Source: Deltaproteobacteria bacterium GWC2_55_46
GTDB taxonomy: Bacteria > Desulfobacterota > GWC2-55-46
Direction: 5' to 3'
DNA length: 64,000 nucleotides
NCBI GenBank assembly: GCA_001595385.3
Contig: LVEI03000001.1
Span: 1,951,501 to 2,015,500 of the forward strand
Part shown: positions 21,366 through 27,938 of the stretch, piece after piece
Layout: each line of letters begins with the position of its first letter
Position numbering within the stretch: the first letter of the stretch is position 1
The notes under the pieces: model-generated
Seen by the model: the letters and a program-made list of their open reading frames with translations, nothing else
What the model was told of the DNA's origin: nothing
Databases searched by the model: none
Position numbers and translations under genes: made by a program

Positions 21366-21752
21366 TTGGATTTAAGACGCAGGGACAAGATAAAGTCGGA
21401 GTTCAAAAAGGCAGAGGAACATCTGAACGCGGCAGAGTTGCTCCACAAGCACGCCCTTTTCACCCCTTCAGTGACCATGTGCTATTATTCATCTATCCAC
21501 GCCGCCACAGCCGCTTTCCTTACGGTGGGCGCCAACCCTCACAGGGAGAAGTTTTTGAGCTTTACCAACGCGGTCAAGAAGTTCAGCTCCAAGATCGACC
21601 CGTTCCTGGAAAGGTTCTACAGCTCTCAGGAAGCATGGGGCCTCAACACCGCCATGGAGTATACAGAGAACGAATCGCTCCTGCGAGTCTATCAGACCAG
21701 GGATTTTATGCTCGAGGTCAAAGACTTCCTGAGGAGGACCGTGAGGAGCTGA
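21366..21752 (+). CDS. HEPN-domain-like protein
   Basis: A 128-residue, mostly helical protein. The pattern CYYSSIHAATAAFLTVGANPHREKF near residues 40-64 resembles the second half of HEPN domains (AYYAxFHAARALL type), and a KAEEHLNAAELLH helix precedes it. HEPN proteins are RNases or nucleic-acid-binding partners, often paired with MNT nucleotidyltransferase antitoxins. No MNT gene is adjacent; the next gene is an XRE regulator. A canonical RX4-6H catalytic motif is not obvious. The TTG start at 21366 is supported by AGGAG 9 bp upstream. Confidence 0.6.
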   Translation: MDLRRRDKIKSEFKKAEEHLNAAELLHKHALFTPSVTMCYYSSIHAATAAFLTVGANPHREKFLSFTNAVKKFSSKIDPFLERFYSSQEAWGLNTAMEYTENESLLRVYQTRDFMLEVKDFLRRTVRS

Positions 21753-21826: not shown

Positions 21827-22216
21827 ATGGCCAGCATAAATACGCGAGAAATATTGGCGAGACTCAGGTCCCTCCGTAAGGAGATGGCTCTCAGGCAGGA
21901 ACATCTCGCTGGCCGCCTTGGGGTGGACAGGTCCACCTACGTCCGCAAGGAACGCGGCGCGATACCCATTACCACAGATGAATGGCTGAAGCTCGCGAAG
22001 GCGCTCCGCGCCGACCCGTCCTATTTTTTCCGGTCTTCCACGAAGCCCGCCGCAGAGGAAGGCGGCCTCGCGTTGAGGGAGCGTCTGCTGCTCAAGTTTT
22101 ACCGCGCGCTTAAGATAAAGGAGCAAAACGACATGGTCCTGACCGTGTACCTTAAGTTCAAGGGCATAAGGAGAAAGGCGGTTCAGGACGCCCTAAGGAT
22201 GCTCAGGGAGGCTTGA
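21827..22216 (+). CDS. XRE-family helix-turn-helix transcriptional regulator
   Basis: A 129-residue protein with an N-terminal Cro/C1-type HTH (residues about 8-65): ILARLRSLRKEMALRQEHLAGRLGVDRSTYVRKERG matches the family pattern and its second helix. The C-terminal half (LALRERLLLKFYRALKIK...) is helical and may dimerise or sense. It lies 74 bp after the HEPN-like gene on the same strand, so the two may be an operon resembling a toxin-antitoxin or phage-control unit. It is also the last protein gene before the tRNA pair used as an integration site. Confidence 0.8.
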   Translation: MASINTREILARLRSLRKEMALRQEHLAGRLGVDRSTYVRKERGAIPITTDEWLKLAKALRADPSYFFRSSTKPAAEEGGLALRERLLLKFYRALKIKEQNDMVLTVYLKFKGIRRKAVQDALRMLREA

Positions 22217-22315: not shown

Positions 22316-22391
22316 GAGCCGCTAGCTCAGTTGGTAGAGCATCTGCCTTTTAAGCAGGTGGCCCCGGGTTCGAGTCCCGGGCGGCTCACCA
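22316..22391 (+). tRNA. tRNA-Lys (anticodon TTT)
   Basis: A full cloverleaf: acceptor GAGCCGC/GCGGCTC, D-arm GCTCAGTTGGTAGAGC, anticodon loop CTTTTAA, T-arm CCGGGTTCGAGTCCCGG, discriminator A and an encoded CCA. It is 16 bp upstream of tRNA-Glu, so they share a transcript. Confidence 0.97.
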
Positions 22392-22407: not shown

Positions 22408-22483
22408 GTCCCCATCGTCTAGAGGCCAAGGACACCGCCCTTTCACGGCGGCGACCAGGGTTCGAATCCCTGTGGGGACGCCA
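22408..22483 (+). tRNA. tRNA-Glu (anticodon TTC)
   Basis: Acceptor GTCCCCA/TGGGGAC, anticodon stem-loop CCGCC-CTTTCAC-GGCGG, T-loop TTCGAAT and encoded CCA. The 3' 21 bases plus one following base reappear exactly at 27787-27808, so this gene looks like the integration target of the element that follows. Confidence 0.97.
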
Positions 22484-22484
22484 A
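22463..22484 (+). repeat. attachment-site repeat, left copy (tRNA side)
   Basis: 22 bp running from the T-loop of tRNA-Glu through its CCA and one extra A. Exactly repeated at 27787-27808. Confidence 0.75.
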
Positions 22485-22493
22485 TCAAAAAGT

Positions 22494-22545
22494 AGCCGTA
22501 CTTCCGGAGTATTTCTCGTAATACAAAGGAATTACGGCTTTTTTA
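22494..22545 (+). terminator. terminator after tRNA-Glu
   Basis: AGCCGTACTTCC pairs with GGAATTACGGCT (11 of 12), with an inner GTATT/AATAC stem, then TTTTTT. It ends the tRNA transcript at the left edge of the island. Confidence 0.75.
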
Positions 22546-22561
22546 TTACCCCGGCGCGGCT

Positions 22562-22598
22562 GGTATAAGGTGGTATAAACCGGTATAAATCGGTATAG
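22562..22598. repeat. four GGTATAA-type motifs at exact 10-bp spacing
   Basis: GGTATAA starts at 22562, 22572 and 22582, with GGTATAG at 22592. The spacing is one helical turn, so all copies face the same side of the DNA. Such phased arrays are typical of protein-binding sites such as integrase arm sites or iterons. No protein is identified. Confidence 0.65.
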
Positions 22599-23279
22599 GA
22601 TGAATGGCCCCGCACTCGGGGCACCTCAGGGGCGTCTCCCAAGGGTAGCTCTTTCCAAGCGCAAATAATTCTTTTACCTCTACTGAAAAATATAGTACCA
22701 AAGAAATGTTGTTGGAGAGGATAACCGCCGGAGAGACCCTTTGCCAAAAGACCTCCAGGTCATCCTCTTTTTTTTATTCAAGCTATTCTGAGAAAGATTC
22801 TTCTTATATCAAAGGATTGTTAGAAAAAGGAAGGAATTTAGGACAAGATAATCTGAGGCGTTACAGTATATTCTCTGTCGACCACCATCGCGAGGCGTTC
22901 CTCGAAGTTAATCTGGCAGGGGACAGGCTAAGCTGCTTCCTATATTGAGCTTGCAAGGCAGTAGCGTCATGTCATGGGCTTTCCAGTTAAGGGTTTGTTG
23001 GGGGACATATCTTAACCGGAAGACTACTTAAAGAGCATTCAACCGTAAAACGCTTTTAGCGGCCATCTCAAATAAGTCCCAGTGTAAGAGATTTGATTCC
23101 TTAGAGCATCAATCTGATAAACCCCCGATTACCACAAGCCGTTGAAATTTATAAAGCTTGTTAATGGCATTGGTGATCCGCTGACTATCATCTTAGAGCC
23201 ATGCCCTTTGGCAGGCGACACAGAACCCTTTGATGTCACGTCATTTTATGAAAAATAAATGCAATGTAGAAAAATTAAC

Positions 23280-23308
23280 TTGACATTTAGCTGCAATTCA
23301 AATATAAG
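23280..23308 (+). promoter_or_regulatory. strong sigma-70-like promoter for the island surface protein
   Basis: TTGACA (23280-23285), a 17-bp spacer and TATAAG (23303-23308) in AT-rich DNA. It gives a leader of about 260 nt before the gene at 23574. Confidence 0.65.
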
Positions 23309-23368
23309 CAATAAATATAAAATTAAATCAAATATAAAAGGCCAATGATAGGCTTTTTTCGGGTGATG

Positions 23369-23418
23369 GAGCCCTTGCTGGAATCTGTTTATTTTTCCTG
23401 TAAGGGTTCTTTTTTTTT
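23369..23418 (+). terminator. terminator-like hairpin in the leader
   Basis: GAGCCCTTGC (23369-23378) can pair with GTAAGGGTTC (23400-23409) allowing G-U pairs, followed directly by nine T. It lies between the promoter and the gene, so it could act as an attenuator. Confidence 0.5.
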
Positions 23419-23517
23419 GGAACAAATAATTAAAACCTCATGATTCATTCGACGTTAAGCGCGTGAATAGCAATTCTGTAAGCGCCATCCAAGATTATCA
23501 ACCAAGGAGGACAAAAA

Positions 23518-23544
23518 TTGGTTTATCAGTTCTATTTTCTTTAA
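23518..23544 (+). CDS. possible leader peptide MVYQFYFL
   Basis: CCAAGGAGG (about 23502-23510) is the best ribosome site in the region and is followed 7 bp later by TTG and eight sense codons, rich in Tyr and Phe, ending in TAA. The true surface-protein start has its own AAAGGAGGG. It could be a regulatory mini-ORF or a decayed start. Confidence 0.3.
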   Translation: MVYQFYFL

Positions 23545-23573
23545 ATAATAAAAATTAAAAGGAGGGCTTTTTT

Positions 23574-26500
23574 ATGGCGCGGGTGAGCAGTATATTCCTA
23601 TTTCTGGCCATGGCTGTATGGCTGCTGTACCCTGCCGCTGCCGCGGCTACCGACCCGATGCTCTCGGGGGCTGAGTCGGTTGTCGCGTCGGATGTCCTTG
23701 ACCAGAGGCGTCCGAAAGTGGCTTTCGACGGTTCGAGGTACCTGGTGGTCTGGGAGGACAACAGGAGCGGCGCATTTGAGATATGGGGCCGTTTCTATGC
23801 CCGGTCCGGCGTCCCGGACGGCTCCGAGTTCATCATCACCGGCACAAGTAACGCAACTGACAGCAGGCCCGAGTTGAGCTTCAATGGCACCAGGTACCTT
23901 GTGACATGGGGCGATATGAGCGGCGCGGGCGGGACCGAGACTGATATATACGGCCGGTTTGTTGAGACGGATGGGACTGTTGGGGCAGCTTTCGCTATAT
24001 GCACCGCGGCAGGCTTCCAGCAGAAATCTTATATCGAGACCGATGGCTCCAATTTCCTTGTTGTATGGATGGACGGGAGAGACCAGGGCAATAATCGTTT
24101 TGATGTCTACGGACGGTTTGTCTCGGCCTCTGGCGTATTGGGCCCCGAGACGGGGATAGCCGTCGGGGTCGGCTCAGCGGAACGCCCTGAGATAAAGTTT
24201 AACGGTACGAGGTACCTTGTCGTATGGAATGACTCACGCGACCCTTTCAACTTTGGCGTTGACAATTTCAGCTTTAACATATGGGGACGCACCATCGATA
24301 GCTCAGGCAACCTCGGCGGCGAGATAGTCATATCCGGAGCGACGGGAGAACAGACGCATCCGCATGTGGACTTCGACGGCACGAACTACCTCGTCGTATG
24401 GAGGGACTTCAGGAACGACCCTTCAGGCATTCAGGCGGAGATATATGGGCAGAGGTTGAATTCGATAGACCAGGTAACCCCCTTGCTTAACGGTGGCGAG
24501 GTCGCCATAAGCACGGCCCCAGCCTCGGACAAGTATCCGCATAGCCTTATCTATAACCGTGACAAGAGGTACTTCCTCGTATATTCCAGTGGTTTTAATA
24601 ATAATACCACCACCGGCAATGTCTACGGCAGGTTCTTAAAGCAGGCCGGCGATGCTTACGGCCCTGAGATAGTCGTAAGCCAGGATCCCTCCCGGAGGGC
24701 GCGCGCGGCCTTTGACGGAGAGAACTTCCTTGTGGTCTGGGCAGCGCTTGGGAGCGATGATGATGTCCACGCCCAGCTCGTAAAGGATGTCGTAAGCATA
24801 ACAACCGCGAGCCTGCCAGACGGCGCGGCAGGCGCGGCGTATAGCGCGTCGCTTTCCGCCACAGGTGGCGTCGAGCCCTATACATGGGGGTTCGACCCTT
24901 CCAATCCGGGGACGCTTCCTCCCGGGCTCAGCCTCAGCTCCAGCGGCGTGCTCTCAGGGACACCCACCGTGGCCGGCACATATACATTCAGGCCGCGCGT
25001 CTATGACAGCTACTTCTCCTATATCTCCAAAGACTATACGGTGACGATAAATAGCGGGACTGTCACCAATGTCAATGTAACGCTCTCTTTTCCGCCGAAT
25101 GAGCCCGGCTTCACAACTGACGGCCTCAACCCTGACACAGGTGATCCGGCGACTGTCTTCGAGTTCAAGGTCGTCTACACCTCGGCCAATAATACGCCGC
25201 CTCAGTATATGAATGTCTGCATAGACAACCAGTGCTGGCCTATGTGGGATGACGGATGGATCTCCGGAGTGAGCGGCTCAGGTGCGCGTAAGCCAGGGCT
25301 TCTTTTCGACGGGCAATATTCCAACGGAGAGCAGTATGTCTGGCGCGGTTCATTGACCGTTGGTACGCACACCTATAAGTTCAGGGCCTTTGACGGCGCG
25401 GAATACGGGAAGCTCCCATACTCCGGCTCTTTATCTGGCCCGACCGTCTCATCAGCCCCTCCTGCGGATGTGACACCGCCCCAGACGCAGTGGAACGTCA
25501 GTTACGACAACTCCAGCCCTCCCAATAAGGTACTGAGGCTGGGCGCGGCCGATGAGGATGTCAGCAACCCAGGCACCTATTCCATCAATACCGTGCGGGA
25601 GATAAACTACAGCATAGACGGGGGAGCCCTGGTTACCGTCCCCGGAGCTGAAGCCTTCATAACCTTCTCAAACGAAGGCTCATACGATGTGTCTTACTAC
25701 GCGGTAGACACCTCAGGGAATGCGGAGAGCGCCCAGCAGGTAAACGTAACACTTGACCGCACCCCCCCTGTCATCACGGCGGTGGACGGCTCTATTACGT
25801 TGCCACAAGGGGCTTTATACGCTGATTGGCACGATCTGCTTCAGTTCGTGTCTGCTACCGACAACCTTTCCGGCGTACAGCTGCTATACCCGAGCCTAAG
25901 CCAGTTCTACCCGGGATTTTACCCTTATCTGGCCTGGGTCGCCGTCGACTTTGAGAGCAACACCGCCGTGGAACATAATAACATAACGATAAACACCCAA
26001 TCCACGGTCTACGGCCTTCAGCTCGCAGGCGGCACAACAGCGCAGATATCCGTGAACGGCCAGACGCTTTCGAATGTAAGCGCTACCACGGCTGGACCGC
26101 CGCCCCCCGGGGTATTGTTCCCGGTGGGGGCCATATCATACAGCGTGACATCGCCGTCCGGCGGGCAGGTGACGACGACATTTACATTCACGCCGGCCAT
26201 CTCTGGCCCGATAGACCTGTACAAGGTAAACGGAGGTGGGCAAATTACGCCTCTGCCACCATCTGATTGGACGGCGTCAACAGTGGGCTCTTCCACTGTC
26301 ATCACCTTGACGCTTGCCGACAACGGGCCATATGACCTGGACCCCGCTCTGGGTATGATAGAAGACCCTGTGGCTGTCGGGATAATAGTGAACGCTCCTC
26401 CTGTTGCCTCGGTTGGCTCTGACCGGAACGTCTTCACCGGCGAGACGATTGCATTCGATGGCGCCGGCTCCTCAGACCCTGAGGGCGCGTCGCTTTCCTA

Positions 26501-27626
26501 TTCATGGGCGATTGACTCTGCCCCGTCTGGAAGCGCGGCTGTCCTTTCTGGCGCGGATACCGTCTCGCCTACCCTTGTACCCGATGTCGATGGGCAGTAC
26601 ATCGTTTCTCTCGTCGTAAACGACGGGGTGATCTCGAGCGCCCCTGACACGGTCCTTGTGAACGCCACGATGAACATGCCGCCGGTAGTTACGCTTTCGG
26701 CCTCGACCCTCACCGGCGTCGCCCCGGTCACTGTCTCCTTTGACGCTTCTGGCAGTTACGACCCAGAAGGCGGCGCGCTATCCTACTCATGGGATTTCGG
26801 CGACCCATCAAGCGGGCCTGAGAATACCTCGACCGGGGAGAGCACAGTCCACACATACGCCACGGCTGGTTCCTACTCCGCGGTCGTAAAGATAAAGGAT
26901 GCGTTCGGAAACATCGAGAGCGCCTCGGTCGTGGTTGAGGTAACCGCGCCGAACATGCCGCCTTCGGTAAGCCCGATAGGCAGCCCGGCAAGCGGAACCA
27001 TCCCGCTCGTCGTCAACTTCCAGTCTAACGCGAGCGACCCGGAGGGCGGCGCGTTATCCTACTCGTGGGAGTTCGGCGATGGCGCGACATCATCTGAGGC
27101 CGACCCTATGCATGTATATTATGTCCCTGGGGCATATCAGGCAAGGGTCACGGTATCTGACGGAGAGCATAGCGTGACTGGTACGGTTACAGTAAGCGTT
27201 GATTCGGCTCTCAGCATAAATGTCACGGACGCCAAGGCCGACCTCGGAGGAAGGGGCAATGTCATAGGCAAGCTCAATATCAAAGCCTCCTACGACTACC
27301 GTGGGACGCTTGTCCCGTCTGACGTCATACGGGTCGTCTTCGGCGGCATTACCGAGTTCGAAGGGACCTTCGGCAACTTTACGGCCTCTGAGGATGAACC
27401 AGGGGTCTACGAAAGGAAGGATGACAATCTTCATGTGAAGATCGATACCTCGTCAGGTATGATAAAACTGACGAGGCATAAGACGGTGCTCTCTTCGATA
27501 GACAACTCTAACGGTGTGGAGGTGGCCATTACCTTTGGCTACTCTACCGGTGTCGACCGCATCTTTATGGAGGAGAAGAGGAACAGCGGGAGGCTTGAGG
27601 AGTTGACCTATAAAGAGCACTACTAA
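23574..27626 (+). CDS. large secreted repeat protein: propeller-like repeats, Ig and PKD domains
   Basis: A 1350-residue exported protein with a signal peptide (FLFLAMAVWLLYPAAAAA). Residues about 40-400 hold seven copies of a roughly 52-residue unit ending in P-F-G-YLVVW-D-R-IYGR, suggesting a seven-bladed beta-propeller. A putative Ig domain follows (about 410-495, with LPPGLSLSSSGVLSGTPT), then beta-rich modules, a region like choice-of-anchor U domains (about 800-930), three PKD-type domains (about 940-1210; YSWDFGDP, YSWEFGDG) and a unique C-terminal region. No transmembrane or sorting signal is obvious. ATG 23574 follows AAAGGAGGG. It probably binds glycans or proteins at the cell surface. 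It is the main cargo of the putative island. Confidence 0.8.
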   Translation: MARVSSIFLFLAMAVWLLYPAAAAATDPMLSGAESVVASDVLDQRRPKVAFDGSRYLVVWEDNRSGAFEIWGRFYARSGVPDGSEFIITGTSNATDSRPELSFNGTRYLVTWGDMSGAGGTETDIYGRFVETDGTVGAAFAICTAAGFQQKSYIETDGSNFLVVWMDGRDQGNNRFDVYGRFVSASGVLGPETGIAVGVGSAERPEIKFNGTRYLVVWNDSRDPFNFGVDNFSFNIWGRTIDSSGNLGGEIVISGATGEQTHPHVDFDGTNYLVVWRDFRNDPSGIQAEIYGQRLNSIDQVTPLLNGGEVAISTAPASDKYPHSLIYNRDKRYFLVYSSGFNNNTTTGNVYGRFLKQAGDAYGPEIVVSQDPSRRARAAFDGENFLVVWAALGSDDDVHAQLVKDVVSITTASLPDGAAGAAYSASLSATGGVEPYTWGFDPSNPGTLPPGLSLSSSGVLSGTPTVAGTYTFRPRVYDSYFSYISKDYTVTINSGTVTNVNVTLSFPPNEPGFTTDGLNPDTGDPATVFEFKVVYTSANNTPPQYMNVCIDNQCWPMWDDGWISGVSGSGARKPGLLFDGQYSNGEQYVWRGSLTVGTHTYKFRAFDGAEYGKLPYSGSLSGPTVSSAPPADVTPPQTQWNVSYDNSSPPNKVLRLGAADEDVSNPGTYSINTVREINYSIDGGALVTVPGAEAFITFSNEGSYDVSYYAVDTSGNAESAQQVNVTLDRTPPVITAVDGSITLPQGALYADWHDLLQFVSATDNLSGVQLLYPSLSQFYPGFYPYLAWVAVDFESNTAVEHNNITINTQSTVYGLQLAGGTTAQISVNGQTLSNVSATTAGPPPPGVLFPVGAISYSVTSPSGGQVTTTFTFTPAISGPIDLYKVNGGGQITPLPPSDWTASTVGSSTVITLTLADNGPYDLDPALGMIEDPVAVGIIVNAPPVASVGSDRNVFTGETIAFDGAGSSDPEGASLSYSWAIDSAPSGSAAVLSGADTVSPTLVPDVDGQYIVSLVVNDGVISSAPDTVLVNATMNMPPVVTLSASTLTGVAPVTVSFDASGSYDPEGGALSYSWDFGDPSSGPENTSTGESTVHTYATAGSYSAVVKIKDAFGNIESASVVVEVTAPNMPPSVSPIGSPASGTIPLVVNFQSNASDPEGGALSYSWEFGDGATSSEADPMHVYYVPGAYQARVTVSDGEHSVTGTVTVSVDSALSINVTDAKADLGGRGNVIGKLNIKASYDYRGTLVPSDVIRVVFGGITEFEGTFGNFTASEDEPGVYERKDDNLHVKIDTSSGMIKLTRHKTVLSSIDNSNGVEVAITFGYSTGVDRIFMEEKRNSGRLEELTYKEHY

Positions 27627-27655
27627 GGAAGTGGAATAAGGTTTTTCGGAGGACC

Positions 27656-27693
27656 AACCAGGCGCCCATGAAATGGGGCGCCTGGTTTTTTTT
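27656..27693 (+). terminator. terminator after the large secreted protein
   Basis: AACCAGGCGCCCAT pairs with ATGGGGCGCCTGGTT with one bulge, followed by TTTTTTTT. Confidence 0.85.
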
Positions 27694-27786
27694 GAGTCTG
27701 AAAGTTCGACTGCCTGAGCCTGCCTTCAATCCTGCTGAGTATTTTGATCTTCCCCCGAAAAAATGGACACACAGTTAAGCTACATC

Positions 27787-27808
27787 CGAATCCCTGTGGG
27801 GACGCCAA
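27787..27808 (+). repeat. attachment-site repeat, right copy (tRNA-Glu fragment)
   Basis: Exact copy of 22463-22484. It stands alone here without the rest of a tRNA, in otherwise unremarkable DNA, 8 bp before a terminator. Confidence 0.75.
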
Positions 27809-27815
27809 GAAAATC

Positions 27816-27847
27816 AAAGGTGTTACAGCGAAAGCTGTAACACCTTT
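27816..27847 (+). terminator. terminator next to the right tRNA fragment
   Basis: AAAGGTGTTACAGC pairs perfectly with GCTGTAACACCTTT across GAAA, then ATTATTTT. Placed directly behind a tRNA 3' end, it is probably the original terminator of the tRNA-Glu transcript, displaced by the insertion. The 689 bases between the secreted protein and the AddB-like gene hold this, two other non-coding features and tRNA-His. Confidence 0.8.
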
Positions 27848-27938
27848 ATTATTTTGCCTGTGCCTGTCAGGCGCATTGTATCTATGGCCGGTTAGATTAT
27901 GGAATGTAAGGGGAAGTCAGGATGTTAAGGGGAAAAAA

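Follow-up and report, generated by a model that had tools for sequence, protein, structure and literature searches.

A 5.3-kb segment behind tRNA-Glu of Deltaproteobacteria bacterium GWC2_55_46, a probable relic of an integrated prophage or island

Cis-mobilizable elements (CIMEs), known among the ICESt1-related elements of Streptococcus thermophilus, carry no integration or transfer genes and keep their attachment (att) sites (PMC5704250). In Dehalococcoides, islands are found serially at ssrA, some of them without an integration module, and are bounded by a 20-bp repeat (PMC3146451); of published systems, they come closest to a series of islands of which some have an integration module and others do not. 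A window of 64,000 nucleotides (G000:C1:1951501-2015500) from the 2.79-Mb genome of Deltaproteobacteria bacterium GWC2_55_46 (G000) was analysed here and holds a 5.3-kb segment behind tRNA-Glu. We read this segment, with a probability of roughly 0.78, as what is left of an old prophage or island that insertion of IS elements and deletion have stripped to a CIME-like relic.

The 22-bp repeat and its insertion site in relatives

tRNA-Glu (UUC), the insertion target, was located by ARAGORN and the Rfam tRNA model at 22408-22483 (+), behind tRNA-Lys (22316-22391); in the Rfam search of the region, tRNAs alone exceeded the gathering score. The 22 nt at the end of the tRNA-Glu region (CGAATCCCTGTGGGGACGCCAA, T-loop to 3' end) occupy 22463-22484 (+) and occur again at 27787-27808 (+), 22/22 identical, exactly as a previous reading of the letters and open reading frames (the sequence-only reading) had reported. 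Across the 2.79-Mb genome, the tRNA-Glu end has no match besides its own gene and this right copy. Assemblies can be misled by tRNA repeats in general, but the segment lies inside a 2.59-Mb contig and the chance expectation for an exact 22-mer within 6 kb is ~3e-10, so that a coincidence or an assembly artefact is scarcely credible. The segment thus has the borders of an integrative element, with a direct repeat of the tRNA 3' end on both sides and a complete, rebuilt tRNA-Glu on the left; the left copy is read as the attL core, and the right copy as the attR core, the displaced 3' end of the original tRNA-Glu. Upstream of tRNA-Lys, a HEPN-like protein (21366-21752) adjoins an XRE-type regulator (21827-22216), possibly as a toxin-antitoxin-like pair, and comparable small ORFs precede tRNA-Lys in several members of the family.

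Each repeat copy is followed by a terminator, as had been noted, and both fold strongly against shuffles, with z = -5.0 on the left (22484-22548) and z = -9.0 on the right (27806-27856). The left hairpin (22488-22545, +), behind the rebuilt tRNA gene, resembles the left end of a prophage in G001, a genome of the same genus, and is taken as element-borne. The right hairpin (27816-27847, +) had been suggested to be the original tRNA-Glu terminator, and the flank agrees with this: the right copy is followed by GAAAA, as in the empty site of G002 (same genus); the 27 nt from the attR core on (CGAATCCCTGTGGGGACGCCAAGAAAA) are identical to tRNA-Glu and downstream DNA of G002; and the spacer behind the right copy (GAAAATCAAAG) resembles the native tRNA-Glu spacer of G001, G002 and G007. 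Since the right flank starts like native flanks, the right terminator is probably the original one, and this is a sound reading. Past it lie tRNA-His (opposite strand) and then an addB-like gene.

The tRNA-Lys/tRNA-Glu pair is common across 40 relatives, and the DNA behind the pair varies. In G002 the site is empty: a terminator comes directly after tRNA-Glu, and then an 894-aa gene on the minus strand. G001 has the upstream DNA of G002 (92%), then tRNA-Glu and an integrase-bearing prophage of ~45 kb, with a 401-aa tyrosine integrase next to tRNA-Glu and genes for ParB, primase, GpA terminase, a lambda-type portal and capsid. Behind this prophage are two copies of the tRNA-Glu 3' end, and the terminator and gene behind the second copy are those of G002 (88% over 636 bp). 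With G002 empty and G001 occupied, the tRNA-Glu 3' end is therefore an attachment site in the genus. The right flank of G000 (tRNA-His, addB) is unlike that of G001 and G002, and so the comparison of empty and occupied sites holds at genus level and for a segment other than that of G000. Within that scope, the empty site and the occupied one, together with the left end common to G000 and G001, bear out the earlier proposal that an element inserted into the tRNA-Glu 3' end, with the gene rebuilt on the left and the old 3' end displaced, together with its terminator, to the right.

Positions 22488-22601 match the left end of the G001 prophage at 77% identity over ~114 bp (86 bits; 5.9e-18, G001 genome); elsewhere among 30 family genomes a single further, weaker match was found, in G007. 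The part in common with G001 consists of the hairpin terminator and four direct repeats of GGTATAANNN (22562-22601, +). The repeats (GGTAT) start at 22562, 22572, 22582 and 22592, with a spacing of exactly 10 bp, and their equivalent in G001 is four 10-bp-spaced repeats at 2423-2453 of the oriented region, with the integrase adjoining. In lambda, attL has a P' arm with tandem arm sites of 10 bp, set off from the core by some tens of bp. By position and spacing, the GGTATAANNN repeats are candidate arm-type sites of a P' arm to which an integrase may bind. Because the left ~115 bp are akin to the left end of the G001 prophage, the left junction is read as a phage-type attL. No viral contig of IMG/VR was found with the left-end terminator, a G001-type integrase or the cargo protein described below; two viral contigs contain the 21-mer tRNA-Glu core, one of them inside a complete tRNA-Glu and the other alone with unrelated flanks.

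In five relatives (G001, G007, G009, G030 and G031), the gene directly behind tRNA-Glu is a PF00589 integrase. In G016, a 38-aa remnant (71%) of a G001-type integrase is found behind tRNA-Glu, from which it follows that such decay happens elsewhere too. A second type of insert, with motifs like ATTGAAGAT and CCTTACCGGGGAGG, was seen in G016 (1864), G012 (2634) and G034 (259; oriented regions L100, L130 and L132), and ends in a tRNA-Glu 3' copy ~170 bp behind tRNA-Glu. Integrase-less units behind tRNA-Glu were also seen in G001 (L093; C1 ~183160-184990; 1.8 kb, in tandem with the prophage) and in G005 (L097; C17 ~562730-563840; 1.1 kb). The two units have left and right ends in common and differ in cargo (a TPR protein and an M23 peptidase; a T5orf172 protein).

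Cargo, IS debris and loss of mobility genes

One large ORF lies between the 22-bp copies (23574-27626, +; 1350 aa), with its own terminator at 27656-27687 (+). The protein has an N-terminal hydrophobic leader, YLVVW repeats, a choice-of-anchor U domain and PKD domains (Pfam PKD; NCBIfam choice_anch_U and OmpL47-type). No full-length relative was found in genomes of the genus or family, where domain matches were partial, and among public genomes the N-terminal part had a single distant match, in a WOR-3 MAG. Models of defence systems gave no match, and PHROG gave one weak tail match via the PKD region (E = 0.007). GC and GC3 of the gene are near the genome values, and hence it does not look recently acquired. 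The product is an intact, lineage-specific exported protein, probably at the cell surface; we infer that the gene was carried as cargo.

The 1.1 kb behind the left end holds IS21 and IS481 debris, in a stretch of 40% GC. It includes a fragment of an IS21 istB gene (22866-22907, -; 88% over 42 nt to istB at C1:314238 of the same genome) and the end of an rve-transposase, IS481-like element (22985-23057, -; 73-77% to a multi-copy IS end in G009, G010, G013, G017 and G044). On the right, the outer ~41 bp of an IS3-type element (27745-27785), truncated on its inner side, end 1 nt before the repeat. Copies in G014 match this stub at 40/40 positions and one copy in G007 at 39/40, and further copies of the IS3 end lie within G000 at C2:98470 and C1:2. 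Neither the IS debris nor the IS3 stub had been remarked on in the sequence-only reading; with them, remnants of three different IS elements lie within the segment. Complete IS3 copies (L167) have their interior, with orfB, on the side that is here taken by the 22-mer (the attR side). A deletion thus extended from inside IS3 to within 1 nt of the repeat. On the left, the attL core is kept together with the arm repeats, and of attR the core is kept with the IS3 stub directly before it; the element side of attR is lost, and the 5' limit of the right repeat is uninformative on the original crossover. In the IS3 copy of G007 (L167 ~1545-1570), the end of orfB (CGAACTCCTGTGGAGAC) is 14/17 identical to the tRNA-Glu core (CGAATCCCTGTGGGGAC), perhaps by chance or perhaps with relevance to the IS/att junction.

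No integrase was found in the segment by ORF listing, by Pfam or by tblastn with the tRNA-Glu integrases of two relatives (G001 and G007), in agreement with the previous reading. A complete integrative element at a tRNA 3' end would carry an integrase gene; as none was found in the segment, it is classed as a remnant. A decayed integrase between 22486 and 23573 was looked for with the same two queries, which gave chance matches only, and a 75-aa zinc-ribbon-like frame (22549-22773, -) was rejected, with no family relative and sub-threshold Pfam matches.

The relic would have arisen as follows. A tyrosine-integrase element of the G001 kind, a prophage, would have entered the tRNA-Glu 3' end by site-specific recombination, rebuilding the tRNA with its own terminator behind it and displacing the old 3' end and terminator rightward. 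IS21-, IS481- and IS3-type elements would afterwards have landed in it, and deletions would have removed the integrase along with the phage genes, and also the attR flank on the element side. Left over would be the attL half with its arm repeats, IS debris, the intact cargo gene and a bare 22-bp attR core, which together would presumably no longer move.

The segment could instead be a satellite or CIME that is still mobile, with a working attL and attR, moved, alone or in tandem with it, by a phage or island that arrives with an integrase. Its attL core and 10-bp arm repeats are retained, integrase-less units stand between tRNA-Glu 3' copies in G001 (1.8 kb) and G005 (1.1 kb), and CIMEs and tandem integrase-less islands are known (PMC5704250, PMC3146451). 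However, IS debris lies in the segment, the right core is preceded by an IS3 stub alone, no second copy of the segment was found in any relative searched, and a cognate integrase was not found in G000, where no close relative of the G001 integrase turned up and the closest matches to it are Xer-like recombinases (34%). A phage satellite would also be known by its genes, and no satellite-specific regulator, packaging gene or replication module was found in the segment, which has one large exported protein only. Given the decayed IS pieces, the severed attR and matches to Xer-like recombinases only, a satellite awaiting an integrase, as the sequence-only reading had envisaged, is unlikely. That reading was right that the segment holds one large ORF for a secreted protein, but the protein is no evidence for a satellite.

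The small units of G001 and G005 each end in a tRNA 3'-end copy. It is conceivable, at rather long odds, that tRNA-Glu of this family gathers such integrase-less units in the manner of cassettes moved in trans by phage integrases, with the 5.3-kb segment as a large and damaged member.

Structured repeats in tRNA T-loops

A repeat of ~90 nt with four hairpins is dispersed through the family, and some tRNA-end copies in relatives are T-loop repeats of this kind, not phage scars. Among 20 copies read, roughly half or more lay exactly inside a tRNA T-loop (for example GGGTTCGA[...]GAATCCC, then the tRNA 3' end). One copy is in G000 (L181 447-581, -; G000:C1 ~1228546-1228680), where an additional tRNA-Ser(GGA) next to the intact gene contains it, and G003 has the same arrangement; further copies are at L182-L184, L186-L191, L196, L198 and L101 6655-6955. 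Compensatory changes were found in 7 of 16 consensus pairs, and single copies fold at z of -3.5 to -4.1. Two hairpin loops have conserved AGGA/ANGGA motifs, which we take to resemble CsrA/RsmA sites; Rfam CsrC matches were weak and far below the gathering score. The repeat was present in 16/22 csrA-bearing and 0/8 csrA-less family genomes (Fisher 5e-4, uncorrected for phylogeny), with csrA present and the repeat absent in six. As a possible hypothesis from these features, the repeat may be a tRNA-hosted CsrA-sponge RNA.

In G007 (C3:6581-6950; L101), two tandem units of ~175 bp lie behind a phage-type attR, each made of a T-loop repeat, a tRNA-Glu 3' end and a terminator-like hairpin. These units are reminiscent of the E. 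coli tyrT/rtT repeats; literature searches on palindromic insertions in tRNA T-loops and on rtT repeats found nothing relevant.

Could the right 22-bp copy be the last piece of a tRNA-Glu-derived unit of the G007 kind, cut by the IS3 deletion, and not an attR? Many tRNA 3'-end copies in relatives have one and the same starting point in the T-loop, owing to a structured insert at that place, and the 5' edge of the right copy is set by the IS stub. Such units, however, leave GAGATG or similar before AATCC, not ATC before CGAATCC; the covariance model of the ~90-nt repeat found no copy in the window; and the phage-type left end would stay unexplained. We regard this origin as improbable and retain the reading of the right copy as the attR core of a decayed prophage or island.

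Comparison with known systems

For this lineage, a hotspot at tRNA-Glu is documented: the site was seen empty, occupied by a prophage with its integrase, and with relics in several cases. The segment illustrates one end state of tRNA-targeted islands, in which the attachment arm and a cargo gene outlast the IS-driven loss of mobility genes. It also advises caution: where a short repeat of a tRNA end comes with no integrase, it is often a relic, and the edge of such a repeat may be set by an IS deletion, so that its length is no measure of the att core.

The G001 prophage shares with the segment the target, the left-end terminator and the 10-bp repeats, and differs in its 45 kb with an integrase and structural genes, neither of which the G000 segment has. 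The Dehalococcoides ssrA islands are alike in their 20-bp repeat of the 3' end of an RNA gene, in the crossover in the T-loop and in that some have no integrase (PMC3146451); there the target is ssrA and the enzyme a serine recombinase, whereas here they are tRNA-Glu and tyrosine integrases. As in CIMEs, att sites flank the segment at the 3' end of a gene, integration and transfer genes have been lost, and the state arises by decay of an integrative element; unlike them, it has a prophage-like parent, a right att site without its element side and no accretion partner in G000, such as would mobilise a CIME in cis. The segment is thus of a known kind, an ordinary relic at a repeatedly used insertion site, and fits the CIME kind save for its damaged attR.
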